Below the pieces are notes generated by a model, which made no database searches, was not told the origin of the DNA, and worked only from the letters and a program-made list of their open reading frames with translations. Position numbers and translations under genes: made by a program. 64,000 nucleotides of DNA from Methanofollis tationis. GTDB lineage: Archaea; Halobacteriota; Methanomicrobia; Methanomicrobiales; Methanofollaceae. The stretch lies in assembly GCF_013377755.1 (NCBI RefSeq), contig NZ_JABXWR010000001.1, positions 1,561,104-1,625,103 on the forward strand. The letters run 5' to 3'. Position 1 is the stretch's first letter. Every line of letters begins with the position of its first letter. Below, one piece after another: positions 3,684-48,804 of the stretch.

Positions 3684-4193
3684 TTATTCCCCCTCCCCCC
3701 TCTTTCGGATGACCATCTCGCACTGAGCATCGCCCATGCACCGCGCCCGCACGAACCTGAGGGTGAACGCCCCGTTCAGGTGCTCGACAGCCGAGATGGC
3801 AAACGGCATGCACCATGAAGCGCCCGCGGAGAGATCGCATGCGACATCACGCAGCGTCCCGGTAAACGGGCATCCTTTCATCACCACCGTCGCCGCTTCT
3901 CCTGACGCCGGGAGGACAGTGACCCTGAACTCCGGGCCGAAGAGCACCACGGCGCCGACCCTCAGCGCCCCGGCGATCTCCTCCGCGTTATCGGTCGAAA
4001 TGCCGAAGGTATCGACGATCTCCTTCACCTCGCGGCCGATCGCGTACCAGATCATTTGCTCCCGCTCTTCGACCGCCCCGGTTCCTTCACCGCGCAGGGC
4101 GCAGGAGTAGAGCGCCGGAATGAGGGCGGCCAGACGCGCCGCAAACCGCCACCTCGCCATCGGCGGGATCTCCTCGATCAGATCCTTTGCCAT
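3684..4193 (-). CDS. Cysteine-containing paralogue A, ATC-hydrolase/DUF6125-like
   Basis: About 169 residues. The N-terminal half is helical, then come VVMKGCPFTG, a cysteine-histidine patch and the terminal pattern CMGDAQCEMVI. The layout (helical N-terminus, CP motif, GD-x-x-C near the end) resembles the L-2-amino-thiazoline-4-carboxylate hydrolase family and the related DUF6125 group; the family assignment is tentative. It is a tandem paralogue of the next gene upstream on this strand. Three GTG codons precede the ATG at 4193, so the exact start is open. Confidence 0.6.
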   Translation of the reverse strand: MAKDLIEEIPPMARWRFAARLAALIPALYSCALRGEGTGAVEEREQMIWYAIGREVKEIVDTFGISTDNAEEIAGALRVGAVVLFGPEFRVTVLPASGEAATVVMKGCPFTGTLRDVACDLSAGASWCMPFAISAVEHLNGAFTLRFVRARCMGDAQCEMVIRKRGEGE

Positions 4194-4247
4194 CACCACC
4201 ACTCTCGCCCACAGATACTAAAAAAGATGGGATCGAACCACGGGCAT

Positions 4248-4745
4248 TCAGGCTTTCGGCTCGATCCTCATCCTGCACTCGGCATCGCCGACGCAGATCC
4301 CGCTCCGGTGCGCAATCCCGTAGGATGGGTTCAGGCTCTCAACCGCAGACTCACCATACGCCCTGCAGTCGGCACAGCAGGCGCGCGGGTCCATCCCCAT
4401 CTCAGATGCACGGGAGCACATGGGACAGGAGGTCACGACAATATCGGCGCAGTCCCGGTCTTTCGCCACCTTCACCTCGCCCTGCAGTTCAGGGCCGAGC
4501 AGGAGGGTCGAGATGGTGCTGTACGCCTCCGCCACGTCCGCCGCATTCTTCAACGGCATGGCGAAACCGCGGGCGAGCGCACCCTGCCCCTTTCCGGCCT
4601 CCCGCCAGATCGCCACGATCGACTCTTCAAAGCCCTCGCCGTACCGCTCCATGACCGCACGATGATAGGCGAACGGCATCGCCGTCGCCGCCCGCGTCGC
4701 AATGTTCCACCTCAGCTCGGCAGGTATCTGCTCTATTTTAGTCAT
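4248..4745 (-). CDS. Cysteine-rich paralogue B, ATC-hydrolase/DUF6125-like
   Basis: A 165-residue relative of the downstream gene, with more cysteines: VTSCPMCSRA, then CCADC, and the terminal CVGDAECRMRI. The shared endings (C-x-GDA-x-C-x-M-x-I) and N-terminal RW-x2-A-x-RAA pattern show common descent. The cysteines could bind a metal or cluster. ATG at 4745 is chosen because GGAGAGGTGG lies 6 nt upstream; the GTG at 4754 lies inside that ribosome-binding site. Divergent from the HAD gene. Confidence 0.65.
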   Translation of the reverse strand: MTKIEQIPAELRWNIATRAATAMPFAYHRAVMERYGEGFEESIVAIWREAGKGQGALARGFAMPLKNAADVAEAYSTISTLLLGPELQGEVKVAKDRDCADIVVTSCPMCSRASEMGMDPRACCADCRAYGESAVESLNPSYGIAHRSGICVGDAECRMRIEPKA

Positions 4746-38015: not shown

Positions 38016-39272
38016 GACAGTGTAACGAATCTTCTGTAAAAATAATTTGGCCCTGAATCCAACCTAGATTTGCAGAAAGGAGAAACAGGGCCATGGATCT
38101 CTTAGCGTTAATCGAAGATTATCTTTCCGATAATGAGAATGGCATGAAGACCCTCATCACCTGGTTCCTCAACCAGGTGATGCTGCTCGAAGCCCTCCAA
38201 CAGGCGGGAGCCGAGCAGTATGAACGAACCGATGCGCGGAAGGCTCACCGAAACGGCTACAAGAAGCGATCTCTGAAAACACGATATGGAGAAACGATCC
38301 TCCATAAACCTCAGTTCCAAGAGTTCCCCTTCGAAACACAGGTATTTGGACGCGATTCCCGGGTTGAGAAGGCTCTTGAGAATGCTATCTTTGAATCCTA
38401 CCTTCAGGGAGTCTCAACCCGCAGGATCCAGGAGATTGTTGCTCATTTTGGCATCGAACAACTCTCTCCTGCTTCAGTATCCAGGATAGCAAAGGACCTC
38501 GATGAACAGGTCCATGCATTCCTTCAGAGGCCGATTGAACAGGAGATTCCCTATCTCTTTGTGGATGCTTCGTACTACAAAGTCAGAGAGGGACCACGGT
38601 ACATCACCAAAGCTCTTCTGGTGATCGCCGGGGTTCGAATGGATGGCTACCGCTAAATCCTGGGAGCCAGAATCACTGATTGTGAAAATGAGATGTTCTG
38701 GTCGGGATTGTTCGAAGACCTCAAAGAACGAGGATTGGTGGGTGTCAAGATGGTTGTCTCAGATGGTCATGCCGGGATCCAGAAGGCGGCGGAAGCCGCC
38801 TTCCTCGGCGCATCGTGGCAGATGTGCTCGGTCCATTGCACCCGGGCGGTTTTAAAGAATATTCCACGGAAACATCAGAAAGAAGTTGCTGAGTCCTTGA
38901 AGGAGGCATATGGGGACGAGGAAAGACTTCAGCAGCTTGCAGATGATCTGAACGAACGAGGATATCGGAAAGCGGCCAATACGATCGAGAGATTCATCCC
39001 GGGACTTATGAGTTACACGGCGTTCCCGAAAGAGCACGCAAAGCGGATCCGAACGACGAACATGATGGAAAGAGTCAACAAGGAACTGAAACGGAGAACC
39101 AAAGTTGTAGGGGCCTTTCCCAATGAAGAGTCACTCCTCAGGCTGGCAGGATCCATCCTGATGGACATCAATGAGGAGTGGGTGACCGGCAGAAGATATT
39201 TGACGATGGAGGGGGAATGATCAAACAAGGAGACAGGGCTCAGACGAATTACAGAAGATCTGAAACACTACC
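38016..39272 (+). mobile_element. IS256-type insertion sequence, copy 1 (1257 bp)
   Basis: Bounds come from comparison with the inverted copy at 53856-55112, which has the same length. The termini are imperfect inverted repeats: GACAGTGTAACGAATCTTCT on the left, and GGTAGTGTTTCAGATCTTCT read from the right end. It carries one transposase gene, broken by a nonsense codon. The flanks (ATGCC on the left, TTCTTC on the right) show no target duplication and belong to two different broken genes. That points to a recombination or deletion event after insertion. Confidence 0.85.
38093..39220 (+). pseudogene. IS256-family transposase with internal stop
   Basis: A 375-codon transposase gene. Codon 188 is TAA (38654-38656), where the other copy has GAA (Glu), so the gene is split into about 187 and 187 residues. 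The DDE residues are otherwise present: LFVDASYYK, VVSDGHAGI and MMERVNKEL. A few other substitutions separate the copies (for example Leu3/Pro, Gln36/His, Asp87/Tyr), so copy 1 has had time to diverge. It is probably immobile unless served by copy 2 in trans. Confidence 0.9.
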
Positions 39273-42139: not shown

Positions 42140-43210
42140 TCACCCCACCGTATAGGTGAAGTAAGTCCCCCAGTTGCCCTTCTCGACAAAGCGCGTGCCG
42201 AAGCCCCAGGCGGTCTCCTCACCCTCGCCGCACGGGACCGGGACGACGATGATGATCACCTGCCCGCCTTCGGGCACCAGGACGATCGCGACCAGATCGC
42301 CCGGGCCGGGCACAAAGCCCTCGCCATATGCATATGCGGCGGCGAGGATCTCCTGGACCCGGCCCTCGTCATAACCGGTATAGGTCTCGTGTTCGGGATC
42401 GTCGTCGACGAGACGCCAGATCGCCCGCTGGACGTCCCCGAACGTGTAGATGCCGTTGCCGCCCGTTTGCCCGACAAAGCCCTGGTTGATGATCCAGTTC
42501 ACCAGGTCCAGGTTCTCGGGGTGATCGATGGTGCCGGTCGGGATGGCGCCGTAACTTGAATAGACGGCCGCCCGGTAGTCCCGGTCTCTCTCAATATTTG
42601 TCCCGGTGTTGACGCACCAGCCCGGATAGATGCCGTCGAGGGTTGTTCCTCCTGTAACCGTCACCTCGGGGAGGTACGTAGGGCCGCCCAGATACTGGAA
42701 CGTCACCCGCATCGTCACCTCGTCGGGCAGCACCCCTTCCAGACCGTCCAGCCCGCCGGGCTTCTTCACGACGGCATGGGCGGCAACATACAGCGTACCG
42801 CGCCCCACCTCATCCAGCGGGATCATGAAGGTGTCCGAGCCCACGCACGGATCATAACACTCCCCGTATGCGAACTGCCCCGGGATCGGGTTGCCATTCC
42901 CGGTCTGCTGTTTCCCGTTCCCTGCCTTTGACTTGCCATTATTCGCCTGCAGCTTGCCATTCCCGGTCTGCGGGATGCCGGCAAGAGCGTCGGCGACTGC
43001 AAGGTGCGTCTCGGCAAGGCACCACCTGTCAGCCGTGAGGAATTTCACATACAGATATTCATCGTCGTTCCAGACCAGCACGTCCCCCGCGTCCGTGTGC
43101 TGCCCGGCGATCAGATCCGTCCTATACGGGTCGTCCGCGGTGTGCGCCAGCGCCGGCGCGACCATGGCCATAAGCCCAAAAATAAGGACTGCAATAAGTA
43201 TTCGTCTCAT
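42140..43210 (-). CDS. Secreted protein with a thioester-domain-like C-terminal half
   Basis: A 356-residue secreted protein with a signal peptide (RRILIAVLIFGLMAMVAPALA). Residues 82-107 hold four imperfect GNGK-type repeats, a flexible polar linker. The C-terminal half shows PGWCVNTG (Cys199), AAVYSSYGAIP, LVNWIINQGFVG and FGDVQRAIWRL (Gln261). A WC motif followed by Q-x-A-I-W is the arrangement of Cys-Gln thioester (TED/TQXA) domains of surface adhesins. The assignment is by pattern only. GGAG precedes ATG 43210. No anchor is visible at the C-terminus. Confidence 0.6.
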   Translation of the reverse strand: MRRILIAVLIFGLMAMVAPALAHTADDPYRTDLIAGQHTDAGDVLVWNDDEYLYVKFLTADRWCLAETHLAVADALAGIPQTGNGKLQANNGKSKAGNGKQQTGNGNPIPGQFAYGECYDPCVGSDTFMIPLDEVGRGTLYVAAHAVVKKPGGLDGLEGVLPDEVTMRVTFQYLGGPTYLPEVTVTGGTTLDGIYPGWCVNTGTNIERDRDYRAAVYSSYGAIPTGTIDHPENLDLVNWIINQGFVGQTGGNGIYTFGDVQRAIWRLVDDDPEHETYTGYDEGRVQEILAAAYAYGEGFVPGPGDLVAIVLVPEGGQVIIIVVPVPCGEGEETAWGFGTRFVEKGNWGTYFTYTVG

Positions 43211-43479
43211 ATGTTACACTCCATATACTGGTGCATGCATCACGCTCACCCTCCGTGAGCGTGCCCGCGGCCGTGCCCGGGTGCCGTCGGGACACCTCCC
43301 TGACCCGGACGCCCTGGTCGATATCCCGGGAAAAATATTTTTTTCAGCCATGCACCTCAACAGCATTTTAATTCAAATATTTATATATATCCTATGCTGC
43401 CTGATCGTGAGGGGCCCCAGTACTTCTCTAATTCCTTCCTCCCTCTCATTTCATTCAACGGCGTTTCTCGCTCCCTTTC
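43211..43479. other. Intergenic stretch between the secreted-protein gene and the ISH3-type transposase
   Basis: No gene is seen. It holds an AT-rich tract with AATATTTATATATAT (43375-43389), readable as a TATA element in either direction, and a short A/T run at 43331-43344 that could end transcription from the transposase side. Confidence 0.4.
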
Positions 43480-44637
43480 CTAAACAGGATACCTTAACAC
43501 AGGAATGGCTCTGGCACCCCTCATCGATGTGCGGATCGCCTCCCAGATTATGCACATGAAGGAGCTGAACCGGAAGCCGCGCACCTCAATGGTTTGTGGT
43601 CCCTGTTTCACGGGGGAAAAGTGCTTCCAGAGTAGATCGATCCAGATATTCTTGAGGAGGAACGATATTATAGCGTAGAGATACCGGATGACCGGGTTTT
43701 TTGTGCTCGTACGGGGTTTCACCTGGTTGCGCATCCGATAGGACGATTCAATCGAGAATCTGGACCGATAGGTCTGATGGACCCGATGGGGATTCCACCG
43801 GAGGTTTCCCACGACGTAACCCAGATTCTCAACGCCGCGCTTACCCCGTTTTCCTTTTGCATACTTCACGGCAATCGCAATCTTCAGGACCAGCACCGGT
43901 TTTCCGTGCATCCGATATTCAGCATACCGGGAGTGGGTTCCCTGGAGGACTTGTTTCATCCTTTTCCCGTGTTTCCTGACAGGAACGATGAACGGCACCT
44001 GGACGTCCATCAGAAACCCGAGCACCTTCCGGGTGTAGAACTCCCGATCCAGGCAGAGAACTTCGATGCGAAGACCGAGTTCAGCGATCCGATCGAGACA
44101 TTGCGCGATGTATCCGACCTTCGAGGTATCCCGGCGCACCGGGAACACGGCCAGCGTCATCTGCCGGTTCCTGGTGGTCACATACAGAGTGATGTAGGAA
44201 TAAAACTCATTTGTTGACTTTTTACGCTTACTTCGCACGATATAGGCTTCGTTCTCCTCATCGGTTGACCCGTAGTACGGATCGTTGGTAAAGTCAATCG
44301 CAAACTGATAGGCGTACCCCGGTTTGAGGACGTGGTGCATATGGGTGGTGAGGATCGAGGTGTTATTCTGTTCCAAATCGGCCATATCGAGCTTTTTGAG
44401 GTGGTAGCGAACGGACGTTTCGCACGGTACCCGATCCAGGATGTGGGTGATTGAGTGAACTGACTGATTCATTACAGCCATGCCGACCAGAGAAGAAATC
44501 AAGTCCGTTTGAGTGAGTTTTCCCTGAATGGGAATGGTTAGATGCTGATCCAGTGCCGAAACAACAGGGGCGCAACAGTCTTTAGGTTTCAGAATGTTGC
44601 TCTTTCTGCAGGTCACCCTCGATTTAGGTAAAGGCAT
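43480..44637 (-). CDS. ISH3-family transposase
   Basis: A 385-residue DDE transposase of the IS4 superfamily. Catalytic residues appear in FAIDFTNDPYYG, VLCLDREFYTRK and YRSRFSIESSYRMRN. The YRxRFxIESSYR pattern is typical of archaeal ISH3-type enzymes. The frame is intact, so the element could be active. I could not identify convincing terminal repeats or a target duplication, so only the gene is delimited. Confidence 0.85.
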   Translation of the reverse strand: MPLPKSRVTCRKSNILKPKDCCAPVVSALDQHLTIPIQGKLTQTDLISSLVGMAVMNQSVHSITHILDRVPCETSVRYHLKKLDMADLEQNNTSILTTHMHHVLKPGYAYQFAIDFTNDPYYGSTDEENEAYIVRSKRKKSTNEFYSYITLYVTTRNRQMTLAVFPVRRDTSKVGYIAQCLDRIAELGLRIEVLCLDREFYTRKVLGFLMDVQVPFIVPVRKHGKRMKQVLQGTHSRYAEYRMHGKPVLVLKIAIAVKYAKGKRGKRGVENLGYVVGNLRWNPHRVHQTYRSRFSIESSYRMRNQVKPRTSTKNPVIRYLYAIISFLLKNIWIDLLWKHFSPVKQGPQTIEVRGFRFSSFMCIIWEAIRTSMRGARAIPVLRYPV

Positions 44638-44780: not shown

Positions 44781-45677
44781 TCACTTCACCATTGTAAGCA
44801 GCATATTGTAGCAGTTCATTTTCATCTTCACCTCCCGGATCATTCCCTCCTTCGAAGTCGCCCTCACCGTTTCGCCGAATATTCGTTTTCCACTGGAAAA
44901 CACTCCTTCAGCCTTCCATCTCATCCCATAGTCGATATCCTGTGCCCACTCTCTATATCCCCCCAATCGTACTCGCTCCCGTACGCATTCGGCGCGATAG
45001 GGCGATCCGGTGGATCTGGTCGCTGCATCTGTTCGCGTCTTGATTCCCGATAGGATCCCGCGTTTTTCGAGCGTATTGAAGATCTCGTTCCGGTCATAGG
45101 CCCCATCTGCAAGAAGACGGCGTATGGTATGCTCCCTGCCACAGTGCTGCTGGACCTGATCCAGGAGGGGAATACACCGTGCATCATCCTGAACCGATTC
45201 GTCGGTGACCTCTAGACCAAGGATCTGATTGGTTTCGATGTCGATCATCGCATGGACCTTGATCCATCCGCGCCGGACCCTCCACTTCTCCCGCATCCAT
45301 TCCCCGCGGTTGGTGACTTTGATCCCGGTGCTATCGACAGCAATGATGACATTGCGTGAGAGGATCGTTGGATCAACCCGAAGGGAGATATCAAGACGCT
45401 TGATCCGGCGGAAAAGGGTTGTATAATCTGCTGAAACAAGGGAAGGAATAAAGATAGAGAGTTTCCGGGTAAAACCCTCCATCTGGCGATAGGGCATCTG
45501 CAGGAAGACGTGAATGAAAGCCATCCAGGTGATGAAGGGTTCGGGATAGTGAAAAGGACGACCGGGCTTGCCGGTGTTCATCCGGGAAACGAGATCAGTC
45601 CAGTGGTCGATGAAATCAAGGGAGAGGTAGAATTCGCCGCGGCGAACCAGACGTTCATTATATCCCAAACACCGCAT
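44781..45677 (-). CDS. IS5-type transposase
   Basis: A 298-residue DDE transposase. IIAVDSTGIKVTNRGEW supplies the first Asp, RRLLADGAYDRNEIF the second, and RWKAEGVFSSGKRIFGE the Glu region. The N-terminal helix-turn-helix region contains YPEPFITWMAFIHVF. The frame is intact. Inverted termini are not evident by eye. It is transcribed away from the IS1634-type gene to its right. Confidence 0.85.
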   Translation of the reverse strand: MRCLGYNERLVRRGEFYLSLDFIDHWTDLVSRMNTGKPGRPFHYPEPFITWMAFIHVFLQMPYRQMEGFTRKLSIFIPSLVSADYTTLFRRIKRLDISLRVDPTILSRNVIIAVDSTGIKVTNRGEWMREKWRVRRGWIKVHAMIDIETNQILGLEVTDESVQDDARCIPLLDQVQQHCGREHTIRRLLADGAYDRNEIFNTLEKRGILSGIKTRTDAATRSTGSPYRAECVRERVRLGGYREWAQDIDYGMRWKAEGVFSSGKRIFGETVRATSKEGMIREVKMKMNCYNMLLTMVK

Positions 45678-45751: not shown

Positions 45752-47187
45752 TATATTCCCTAATATTGTATCATATGGACGAGTGGGCTCGCGGGTGGCT
45801 GGAAGACCAACGCCGGAAGGGCGAGAAGTGCCTTGAGATCAAGTACATCCAGGACAAACCCTACGTCTACCGTTCGACAAGCGTCTACGACAAAGCGAGC
45901 AAATCCCCCCGGAAGGTGAGCACGTACCTCGGCCGGCTCACGAAAGATCATGGCCTGGTACCCAAAGGTGCGCGAACGCCAACCATCCAGCCCTGCACCA
46001 TCCACGAATATGGCAACGCTGCCCTGCTGGAAGAAGAGTCCAGTGACCTTCTCCCCATCCTGAAAGACGCCTTCCCGGGCCACTGGCAGGAGATCGTCGC
46101 CCTCACCTTCACCCGGATCTCCGGGTACACGCCGCTCTCCCGGGTCAATGATGCCTGGGAGAAACTCAATAACGGCCTTGAGATCGCGCCGTCCTGCGAT
46201 CCCCGCGCTCTCTCGCGTACGCTCACCGCGATCGGCGGCGATCGTCATGCCCAGCAGCAGGTGTTCCAGTACCTCTCCTCACAATCGAACCGGCTCATCT
46301 ACGACCTCTCGTTCATCTTCTCTTCCTCCGACACCGTAAACCTGGCAGAGTTCGGCTACAACGCTGAAGGGGTCTGGCTGCCCCAGGTGAACATTGCACT
46401 CTTCAGCGCCATGGATACCGGCCTTCCGGTGATGATCCGCGCCCTGCCGGGTTCGGTCAGGGATGTCTCGACTCTCGTTGGATCCCTCGCCGAGATCGCA
46501 GCACCAGGAGGCATTCTTGTCCTCGATCGTGGATTCGTCTCGGAGAAGAACGAAACAGCCCTGATCGAGGCGAAGATCCCGTTCGTCCTCCCGCAACGCC
46601 GCAATAGCACCAGGTACGAGATCAGGATCCATCTCACCGACCACTTCTTCTACCACAAACGGCTGATCCATGCCGGTAAAAGGGAGATCGACGGACTGAC
46701 ACTCTATCTCTACGAGGATGCCGACCTGAAGGTCGAAGAGGAGAAGACCCTCTACCGCCTGCTGGAGGAGGGAGAGATCGATCGGGAAGCGCTGAACGTG
46801 AGGCTGAAGCGTGCGGGCCGGATCCTGATCCTCTCCTCGGTGAAGGCGGAGCCCCAGGAGATCTACCAGATGTATAAGTCGAGAAACCTGGTCGAGGACC
46901 ATTTTGCTGCGTTCAAGAGTTTGATCCAGGCAGACAAGCTCTACCTCCGGGACGCAACGGCGGTGTTCGGCCATGTCTTTGTCGGGTTTCTCTGTCTCTA
47001 TCTCTACTGCCGGATCCTGAACCGGATCAAGAGGGCGGGGATGACAGCGCACCTGTCACCGCAGGGGCTGCTGCTGAAACTCTCAAAGGTGTACGCGGTG
47101 GGAGCGGGGGAGGAGAGACGGATCACCGAGGTGCCGAAGGGGGTGCGGAAGATCGCGGAGAAACTGGAACTCGATATATTCCCTAAT
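45752..47187. repeat. 13-bp direct repeats flanking the IS1634-type gene
   Basis: TATATTCCCTAAT occurs at 45752-45764 and again at 47175-47187 in the same orientation. The right copy lies inside the last codons of the transposase. Direct repeats around an IS1634-type gene could be a target duplication, since the family is known for unusually long ones, but no inverted termini were found to confirm the ends. Confidence 0.4.
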
Positions 47188-47193
47188 GCTTGA
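45775..47193 (+). CDS. IS1634-type transposase
   Basis: A 472-residue IS4-superfamily transposase of the IS1634/IS1549 type. The first catalytic Asp lies in the central domain. GGILVLDRGFVSEKNETAL gives the second Asp, and YKSRNLVEDHFAAFKS carries the Glu in the Y-x2-R-x3-E-x6 pattern. The N-terminal segment YIQDKPYVYRSTSVYDKASK is usual. ATG at 45775 is chosen over TTG at 45766. The frame is intact; it ends 112 nt before the DUF2193 gene. Confidence 0.85.
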   Translation: MDEWARGWLEDQRRKGEKCLEIKYIQDKPYVYRSTSVYDKASKSPRKVSTYLGRLTKDHGLVPKGARTPTIQPCTIHEYGNAALLEEESSDLLPILKDAFPGHWQEIVALTFTRISGYTPLSRVNDAWEKLNNGLEIAPSCDPRALSRTLTAIGGDRHAQQQVFQYLSSQSNRLIYDLSFIFSSSDTVNLAEFGYNAEGVWLPQVNIALFSAMDTGLPVMIRALPGSVRDVSTLVGSLAEIAAPGGILVLDRGFVSEKNETALIEAKIPFVLPQRRNSTRYEIRIHLTDHFFYHKRLIHAGKREIDGLTLYLYEDADLKVEEEKTLYRLLEEGEIDREALNVRLKRAGRILILSSVKAEPQEIYQMYKSRNLVEDHFAAFKSLIQADKLYLRDATAVFGHVFVGFLCLYLYCRILNRIKRAGMTAHLSPQGLLLKLSKVYAVGAGEERRITEVPKGVRKIAEKLELDIFPNA

Positions 47194-47304: not shown

Positions 47305-48804
47305 ATGTCAGAACTGTATAGGAAGATGGTCGACGAGGCGATGGCTGCCCAGCGGGCAGATGTCGGCATGGTGAAGAAGAAGCGGGGGGAGGCTTTCGTC
47401 ATTGAGGATGCCAGGGCGTATCTCGATGCGGTAAGCCAGATGAAACCTGTCGAAGACCAGTCGAAAGCAGTCTTCTCGCTTCACACCGACTCGGTAAAAG
47501 CGCACTTTGAGGTCCTCAAAGGATTGACAGAGACCGTCAGGCCTGAGGACGATCCCTTCGTCGAGCATTACCAGACCCCTGTGGTCCTAGAGATCCTCTA
47601 TGGCGAGGATCCTGCGTTCAGGAAGAGCGTCGACGCCTTCATCGAGGGGATCGGAAAGGCAGAGGCACTGATTGGACGGGAATCTGCCCGCCGGTATGCC
47701 GGATTCTACGGACCGACCTGTGTGGTGGACTTTGCCCTGATCCCTGGCAGCACCAGCAATGTGGTCAACCAGATCTTACAGACCGTCGATATCCCGGTCA
47801 CCCATAAACAGGCGATCCTTGCTTCAAAGTCGTGGGGGATGAACACCAGTTACGGTATCGGCGAGGTGTTTGCCCAGGAGACCGAGAAAGGCGCTACCCT
47901 CGCCGATGCGGTGAAGGCGGAGATCCAGATGCTCAAGGCGGTCTATGACGAACCGGTCGAGACCCAGGCAAAACTGATGGACGCTGCCGGCATGACCTCG
48001 TTCGACTGCCGGAAGTACATGGCCGGATACCGGACGAAGATGGAGGGCGCGGTCATGGCGGCGATCGATGATGGCGTCCATTACGCCAACATCGTCACGG
48101 TTCCGGCCTACTGCGTCGGCGACATCGCCCATCACATCGCCCAGTCCACGTACAACATGTGCAAGGACGATGTCATCATGGCGACCATCGAGGCCGCAAC
48201 CGACGTGATGGACCTCAACCTGAGAAACGCCGTCCCGAAATGCAAGAGCGAGTATGATCTCCTCTCGCTCGCCACCGGGGCGTCGGCCTGCGCTGCCGAG
48301 TACATCCTCGAACTTGACGGATTCAATGCGATCATGCTCGTCGATCTCCTCACCAAGCGGTGGCACAACTATGTGCAGCTCTACCCGAAACGCGGCGCCG
48401 CTGCTGAACTGCACAACTGCGACTTCATGGACATGATCTACCGCGGCTGGAAGTATGTGGACAAGGCCCGCAGGGCGCAGAACGGACAGAGCGGGATGCT
48501 CAGGCCGAAGGTCAGCGGTTTCGAGGTGGATCTCTCGCCGATCCACAATAATGACGTCCTGATGAACCCGCAACGCTACGCGTACCCGGCGTGTGCGATC
48601 ACCGTGCGCGCCTCTTCGTTGCTCCGTCTTGCAGACTATCCGTGTCTCCTCACGAGCGAACCGGTCACGGCGACGCTCATGACGAACATCATCGCCCTGC
48701 ACAAGGAGGTCGCCGCTGCGCCGGCCAGGATCTGCAAGGACTGCGCCTCCGCGGCCCTGATGGACTTCAGGCACTGCTACTGCCAGTGGAAGGAAGCGGT
48801 CTGA
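47305..48804 (+). CDS. DUF2193 protein
   Basis: A 499-residue soluble protein matching DUF2193, a family confined largely to methanogens and without known function. It is mostly helical, with LIPGSTSNVVNQILQTVDIP and a C-terminal metal-like motif at Cys477, Cys480, Cys491 and Cys493 (CKDC then CYC). A TATA-like TTTTAAATA at 47214-47222 and GGAGAGGTGA 7 nt before the ATG mark a good promoter and start. It heads a three-gene operon with DUF2180 and an aquaporin. Confidence 0.82.
   Translation: MSELYRKMVDEAMAAQRADVGMVKKKRGEAFVIEDARAYLDAVSQMKPVEDQSKAVFSLHTDSVKAHFEVLKGLTETVRPEDDPFVEHYQTPVVLEILYGEDPAFRKSVDAFIEGIGKAEALIGRESARRYAGFYGPTCVVDFALIPGSTSNVVNQILQTVDIPVTHKQAILASKSWGMNTSYGIGEVFAQETEKGATLADAVKAEIQMLKAVYDEPVETQAKLMDAAGMTSFDCRKYMAGYRTKMEGAVMAAIDDGVHYANIVTVPAYCVGDIAHHIAQSTYNMCKDDVIMATIEAATDVMDLNLRNAVPKCKSEYDLLSLATGASACAAEYILELDGFNAIMLVDLLTKRWHNYVQLYPKRGAAAELHNCDFMDMIYRGWKYVDKARRAQNGQSGMLRPKVSGFEVDLSPIHNNDVLMNPQRYAYPACAITVRASSLLRLADYPCLLTSEPVTATLMTNIIALHKEVAAAPARICKDCASAALMDFRHCYCQWKEAV

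Follow-up and report, generated by a model that had tools for sequence, protein, structure and literature searches.

The open reading frame at positions 42140-43210 (minus strand) of the window, which denotes the complete stretch of 64,000 nucleotides of Methanofollis tationis DNA analyzed here, codes for a protein of 356 amino acids and raises the question whether a methanogen may secrete a protein capable of binding covalently to its surroundings. Thioester domains (TEDs) are used by some disease-causing bacteria for covalent attachment to their targets, and the original prediction proposed that the protein contains such a domain, with Cys199 and Gln261 as the residues forming the internal thioester. 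As set out below, the domain assignment holds up, while the bond most likely involves another Gln.

The proposed secretion of the protein is borne out by its hydrophobic N-terminal stretch, which resembles a signal peptide by eye and ends at APALA|HTADD. A GGAG sequence resembling a ribosome-binding site is seen by eye 8 nt 5' of the ATG codon (43219-43222, minus strand). The gene is present in a single copy in the genome, and the only close ortholog among 199 genomes of the order (Methanomicrobiales) comes from the same genus (85%; locus L002 in genome G003). Comparison of the two genes indicates purifying selection, with dN/dS values of 0.24 over 349 codons and 0.255 over the TED, and Cys199, Gln261, and Gln317 are all retained in the ortholog. 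The coordinates of the features discussed in the following are collected in the table.

Table. Features of the gene for the TED-containing protein. Positions refer to the window, residues to the unprocessed protein.
Feature	Residues	Positions	Strand	Basis
Signal peptide (predicted)	1-22	43145..43210	-	Read by eye from translation
Carrier, N-terminal part, Ig-like beta-sandwich	23-152	42755..43144	-	AF2, homologous L017/L010, VIA
Variable GNGK-type loop within carrier	82-107	42890..42967	-	Low pLDDT; gapped in most relatives
Thioester (TED-like) domain, carrier insert	163-328	42227..42724	-	Foldseek, VIA, PF08341
Carrier, C-terminal part (ETAWG...WGTYFTY), predicted to complete sandwich	331-356	42143..42220	-	AF2, VIA, L017/L010
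Codon of Cys199, predicted thioester Cys	199	42614..42616	-	54/54 relatives; end of third TED strand
Codon of Gln261, helix Gln of TQxxPhiW-type motif, not the bonding Gln	261	42428..42430	-	53/54 relatives; helix 235-246
Codon of Gln317, predicted thioester-forming Gln in last beta-hairpin	317	42260..42262	-	Conservation and structural end offsets

The only Pfam family reported for the protein at E values up to 10 is PF08341, the TED family. In this profile check, which the original prediction had suggested, the scores of 18.6 bits for the full chain (E 0.0027) and 20.8 bits for the domain alone (E 0.00053) both stay below the curated cut-off of 22. A scan of the protein against NCBIfam yielded no match. 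Among the relatives, PF08341 matches at E <= 1 are found in 4 of 16 proteins of one set and in 25 of 32 aligned proteins of another, 9 of the latter 32 reaching E <= 0.001 (best value, 3.7e-7). As judged from these profile searches, the pair of Cys and Gln motifs should not be a chance occurrence, because PF08341 is the sole Pfam family reported and also matches the relatives.

The mature protein was modeled with AF2 (mean pLDDT 89.6, pTM 0.73), and the model contains the beta-barrel, the three-helix bundle, and the final hairpin of the TED fold, with the strands, the three helices, and the hairpin arranged in TED order. In a Foldseek search against the PDB, all 11 matches at E <= 0.001 are TEDs, the best one being 5a0l (3.5e-5), as are the best 13 of 340 rows, which cover model residues 142..304. 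The best 13 rows of a VIA alignment against the PDB are likewise all TEDs, with Z values from 10.6 to 8.0 and 5a0d_B as the best row (Z 10.6, rmsd 3.6, 150 residues aligned). The TED rows retrieved by the structural searches show sequence identities of 8-14% to the model. Sequence searches of the PDB, including those with profiles of the family, retrieved no TED, the best rows (Lpg0081 and CorB) being chance matches. The assignment rests on the predicted fold and on Pfam, and together with the conserved residues these support the TED-type domain of the original prediction. The domain should be regarded as a divergent TED within an archaeal carrier protein, as far as the model can tell.

Both motifs, PGWCVNTG containing Cys199 and GDVQRAIW containing Gln261, are present exactly at the residues claimed for them. 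In the numbering of the mature protein used for the model, Cys199 is residue 177 and ends the third TED strand, Gln261 is residue 239 in the second helix, and Gln317, in the sequence context PEGGQVIII, is residue 295 just before the last TED strand. According to the accessible parts of the literature on characterized TEDs, the thioester joins the Cys of a [YFL]C-Phi-zeta motif to a Gln of the last strand, whereas the Gln and Trp of a TQxxPhiW motif in the central helix are non-essential for the thioester (PMC4450167; PMC6194298). Gln261 corresponds to this helix Gln, its motif being located on helix 235-246 of the model and reading VQRAIW, with V in place of T, and the Gln of the last strand or hairpin is provided here by Gln317, so the assignment of Cys199 and Gln261 as the bonding pair is not supported. 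The chemistry suggested by the original prediction needs a corrected Gln rather than rejection, since Gln261 is on a helix and the published thioesters involve a last-strand Gln.

The choice of Gln317 agrees with the end points of the VIA alignments: in 5a0g (CpTIE), the thioester-forming Gln267 precedes the aligned end at 276 by 9 residues, and counting 9 back from model residue 304 leads to 295, i.e. Gln317, while 5a0n (PnTIE) leads to 295 and 5a0l (SfbI) to 294, one off Gln317, a mapping which assumes that the alignments end without gaps. The flanks of Gln317 (G-Q-V-I-I) are a poor fit to the weak PhiQzetaPhiPhi motif. The residue preceding Cys199 is a Trp, and the relatives have W in 44, Y in 9, and F in 1 of 54 rows at this position, compared to the published [YFL]. 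Two other Gln residues were considered as bonding partners and ruled out by comparison with the ortholog L002, which contains a Gly in place of Gln286 and does not keep Gln172.

In a TED-only alignment of 21 rows (A6), Cys199, Gln261, Ala263, Trp265, Ala292, Pro301, and Gln317 are invariant. A larger set of 54 relatives retains Cys199 in all rows and Gln261 and Trp265 in 53 rows each. This set leaves out the truncated L029, L019, the carrier-only loci or pieces L008, L011, L015, L017, L020, L023, L025, and L026, the duplicates L001, L007, L021, L034-L040, L050, and L074-L078, and the PF08341-matching loci L030-L033, L048, and L049, of which L032 and L033 represent the same places as the included L043 and L042. 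In the MAFFT alignment, 43 of the 54 rows have Gln in the column of Gln317, and the remaining 11 contain a last-hairpin Gln as well: in 10 of them it is located five residues earlier in the last-strand region, and the other one is the degenerate L028. Two Gln residues five positions apart in the last hairpin are present in 12 of 54 rows, leading to an ambiguous register, so the bonding Gln is less certain in the bacterial members than in the window protein, whose last hairpin contains no Gln other than Gln317. In the TED copy L028 from Methanogenium, Glu and Leu replace the helix Gln and the Trp, respectively, and the C-terminal end differs; L028 is possibly a decaying copy beside intact ones in the same genome (four matches in G515).

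A thioester between Cys199 and Gln261 themselves would draw on the near-invariance of both residues and on their probable closeness, and a structure-based distance check as originally suggested would probably be passed, but misleadingly so, as in solved TEDs a hydrogen bond connects the helix Gln to the Cys backbone (accessible parts of PMC4450167 and PMC6194298). This pairing appears exceedingly improbable in view of the dispensable helix Gln of these TEDs, the structural end points that fit Gln317, and the equal conservation of the latter. That Cys199 serves in a disulfide or a metal site of an ordinary secreted beta-sandwich protein is suggested by a second Cys in the window TED (Cys327), three more in the carrier, and the many Cys-rich archaeal relatives. 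Against this, the TED Cys is the only one of its domain in 15 of 54 relatives, which argues against a disulfide as its conserved role, no column of His or Lys reaches 60% conservation, and both Foldseek and VIA identify the fold as that of a TED and not of a generic sandwich, making this role of Cys199 very unlikely.

A more serious alternative is a TED fold devoid of a reactive thioester, which would bind its target non-covalently and use the Cys and Gln residues structurally. Fold similarity says nothing of the chemistry, the motif flanks deviate from the published ones, the window protein is without stalk and anchor, and with L028 there is an archaeal copy in which the helix Gln and the Trp are replaced. 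However, the Cys is absolutely conserved and a last-hairpin Gln is found in every row down to about 30% identity, which is what is expected for a bond-forming pair at such distances, and the solitary Cys in the domains of the 15 relatives mentioned above also argues against this option. We therefore regard it as rather unlikely and prefer a thioester between Cys199 and Gln317.

The TED is predicted to be an insert splitting a single Ig-like carrier sandwich. The carrier strands of the AF2 model cover mature residues 7-128, and the Ig-like sandwich rows of the VIA search span model residues 5..333 with about 90 residues aligned. The stand-alone carrier L017 has both the N-terminal and the C-terminal segment, separated by little else, while L010 contains a complete carrier followed by a separate TED; in both of them, the ETAWG...WGTYFTY segment directly follows the carrier. 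The model of the L017 carrier (pLDDT 83.2) found no match at Z >= 8 among 998 chains, just generic Ig-like sandwiches, and the carrier received no family assignment. Of 199 genomes searched in the order, 10 contain matches to the carrier, and L008 and L011 from Methanomicrobiales exhibit other, unrelated-looking inserts at the same place before ETAWG. The carrier looks like an interchangeable display socket. The GNGK-type repeat linker noted originally does exist as a stretch of sequence, but it belongs to a low-confidence loop of the carrier (pLDDT < 50 at residues 88-100, mature 66-78) which most relatives do not have, and it is no linker preceding the TED.

Among the known systems, the Class I TEDs (CpTIE 5a0g/5a0d, SfbI 5a0l, PnTIE 5a0n; PF08341) share the predicted fold and the order of its elements with the window TED, including the third-strand Cys, the Gln and Trp of the central helix, the last-hairpin Gln, and the connection of the third helix to the final hairpin by a linker of about 10 residues and not by a beta-sandwich. 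The window TED differs from them by an identity of only about 10-14% in structural alignments, by the Trp before the Cys, by its Pfam score below the cut-off, by its archaeal host, and by the missing LPXTG anchor. The alpha0 helix of Class I has no counterpart in the model, as DSSP assigns no helix to the segment linking strand 189-196 to helix 209-221. The Class II TEDs (BaTIE 6fwv, SaTIE 6fx6, EfmTIE86 6fwy) match in the upper lobe (Z 8.0-9.3), but their beta-sandwich insert of ~75 residues and their slipknot are both missing from the window TED, and DSSP indicates no insert in the segment leading from helix 260-273 to strand 284-291. The pilus-tip adhesin Cpa/Spy0125 (2xi9, 4bug, 4c0z) likewise contains a TED fold inside a beta-sandwich, with VIA Z values of 10.1-10.2 for 2xi9 and 4bug, and the accessible part of PMC6194298 describes the TED of Cpa as inserted in another domain. 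Its host is an isopeptide domain, in contrast to the Ig-like carrier of the window protein, whose best solved folds reach Z 7.4-7.8. The layout of TIE proteins, with N-terminal TED, stalk repeats of isopeptide or ester type, and sortase (LPXTG) anchor, is not found in the window protein, which consists of carrier and TED.

Searching the order with the full protein gave matches in 20 of 199 genomes, with TED and carrier matches mixed; one of them, L019, was counted as chance and not as a family member, because its frame reads by eye as what we take to be ArgJ. In the phylum, the TED profile A1 matched 17 of 392 genomes, compared to four for PF08341 itself, two of them above the cut-off. These two archaeal loci are L030 in G259 and L031 in G282, the latter only with its neighbors in frame. 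The G259 locus (L030/L048) is also matched by A1 (5.1e-7); L048 continues from the TED into a Big_1 stalk, and L030/L048 and L031 show by eye a hydrophobic C-terminus of the VPE... type. In the contigs of named genomes, the pattern had 61 matches, of which 34 encode a relative, corresponding to 33 loci, with many MAGs among the sources. These relatives come from Planctomycetota, Verrucomicrobiota, Kiritimatiellota, Cyanobacteriota, Pseudomonadota, Bdellovibrionota, and Bacteroidota, from the archaea Haloferax marinum, Candidatus Methanosuratincola, and Methanosarcinaceae, and from other groups. Profile A6 matched 7 of 194 genomes in the phylum of a Crocosphaera MAG (the central genome included), where PF08341 matched none at its cut-off, and 4 of 199 in the phylum of a Phycisphaerales MAG (counting the central genome and a second genome that had supplied a family member). 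From these sequence profiles, the family appears to be thinly but widely distributed, and the present Pfam model overlooks most of it.

Surface proteins of archaea and Gram-negative bacteria with SdrD_B, DUF11, or DUF7507 stalks also contain relatives of the window TED. Among 10 relatives scanned, SdrD_B was found in six (L042, L053, L060, L066, L079, L084) and DUF7507 in four (L042, L046, L060, L067), and the C-terminal ends of L042 and L046 score above the cut-off for a VPXXXP-CTERM sorting signal. The combination of TED, stalk, and sorting signal in these relatives is the predicted layout of a fibrillar adhesin; for the window protein itself, neither Pfam nor NCBIfam revealed a recognized stalk or anchor. 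L042-L047 and L051 are archaeal surface proteins with the TED-like domain in their N-terminal part. Viral contigs gave no match to the full protein and one to profile A2 (the IMG/VR contig L085), phage records gave none, and plasmids gave none in a DNA search and four records in a protein search, all from Rhodobacterales genera by name. The contig of L085, which is part of a viral collection, encodes a protein with carrier and TED that resembles the window protein. L104 (284-4555), on plasmid p90204 of Paracoccus fistulariae, is annotated as "SdrD B-like" and carries its TED-like match (4001-4468) near the C-terminal end, in contrast to the N-terminal placement elsewhere.

In a tree of 53 rows, from which L028 was omitted, the window protein groups firmly only with the ortholog L002; its next neighbors by path, which are weakly supported, come from Planctomycetota, a proteobacterium, and Haloferax. 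The labels for archaea and bacteria require five changes on this tree, of which the starred branches force only one, so a transfer of the family between the domains of life is suggested by the sequences. We regard it as reasonably probable that these proteins represent an overlooked TED clade, mostly below the Pfam cut-off, which extends across archaea (Methanomicrobiales, Methanosarcinaceae, Haloferax, Methanosuratincola) and Gram-negative phyla (Cyanobacteriota, Planctomycetota, Verrucomicrobiota, Pseudomonadota, Bacteroidota). Covalent thioester adhesion would in that case be a general prokaryotic mode of attachment and not peculiar to Gram-positive bacteria, and in some archaea and bacteria the warhead would be an interchangeable insert of a shared, secreted carrier.

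The GT-C-like membrane protein encoded next to the TED gene had been suggested to modify the TED protein, but this role finds no support: the neighbor shows no significant match in Pfam or NCBIfam, and its gene is convergent with the TED gene. In one relative (L086), the two genes are likewise adjacent. Transposase-like genes flank the pair on both sides, namely a seemingly split Mutator-type transposase (Transposase_mut; open reading frames 38093-38656 and 38693-39220), two transposases recognized by eye only (43480-44637 and 44781-45677), and a DDE_Tnp_1 match (45766-47193). Positions 47305-48804, separated from the TED gene by a few genes, encode a full-length DUF2193 protein (907.9 bits), a member of an uncharacterized archaeal family.

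The open reading frame, the predicted TED fold, the conserved Cys and two Gln residues, and the insertion into the carrier are supported by computation, and the thioester, its nucleophile, and its partner are proposed by analogy to characterized TEDs. On this basis, we consider it likely that the protein is a secreted TED for covalent attachment via a Cys199-Gln317 thioester. After export, the internal thioester would form within the TED (residues about 163-328), which the split carrier sandwich would display. A nucleophile, most likely the amine of a lysine of a nearby surface protein, would then attack the carbonyl of Gln317, leaving the protein covalently joined to its target. Because no anchor or stalk is recognized, the protein may either associate with the archaeal envelope via its carrier, or be soluble, with the thioester fixing it to the envelope, to extracellular matrix, or to a partner cell. 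The missing anchor is the weakest point of the adhesin reading, and a self-fixing envelope or matrix protein would fit as well.

TEDs of archaea and Gram-negative bacteria do not appear to have been described so far. No report of them was found in the accessible parts of the literature searched; a legend in the supplement of PMC12617251 mentions a TED, and an archaeal TED may already be in print or in Pfam. The accessible parts of papers naming the archaeal stalk repeats report no TED, the word thioester does not occur in the accessible part of PMC11532034, and the groups named in the context of thioester domains in that of PMC8286594 are Firmicutes and Actinobacteria. The family suggests profiles for recognizing proteins which are now annotated as hypothetical or SdrD B-like. 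If the domain is chemically active, covalent bonding at the cell surface would extend to methanogens and cyanobacteria, where lasting attachment between cells matters in syntrophy, aggregates, and mats.
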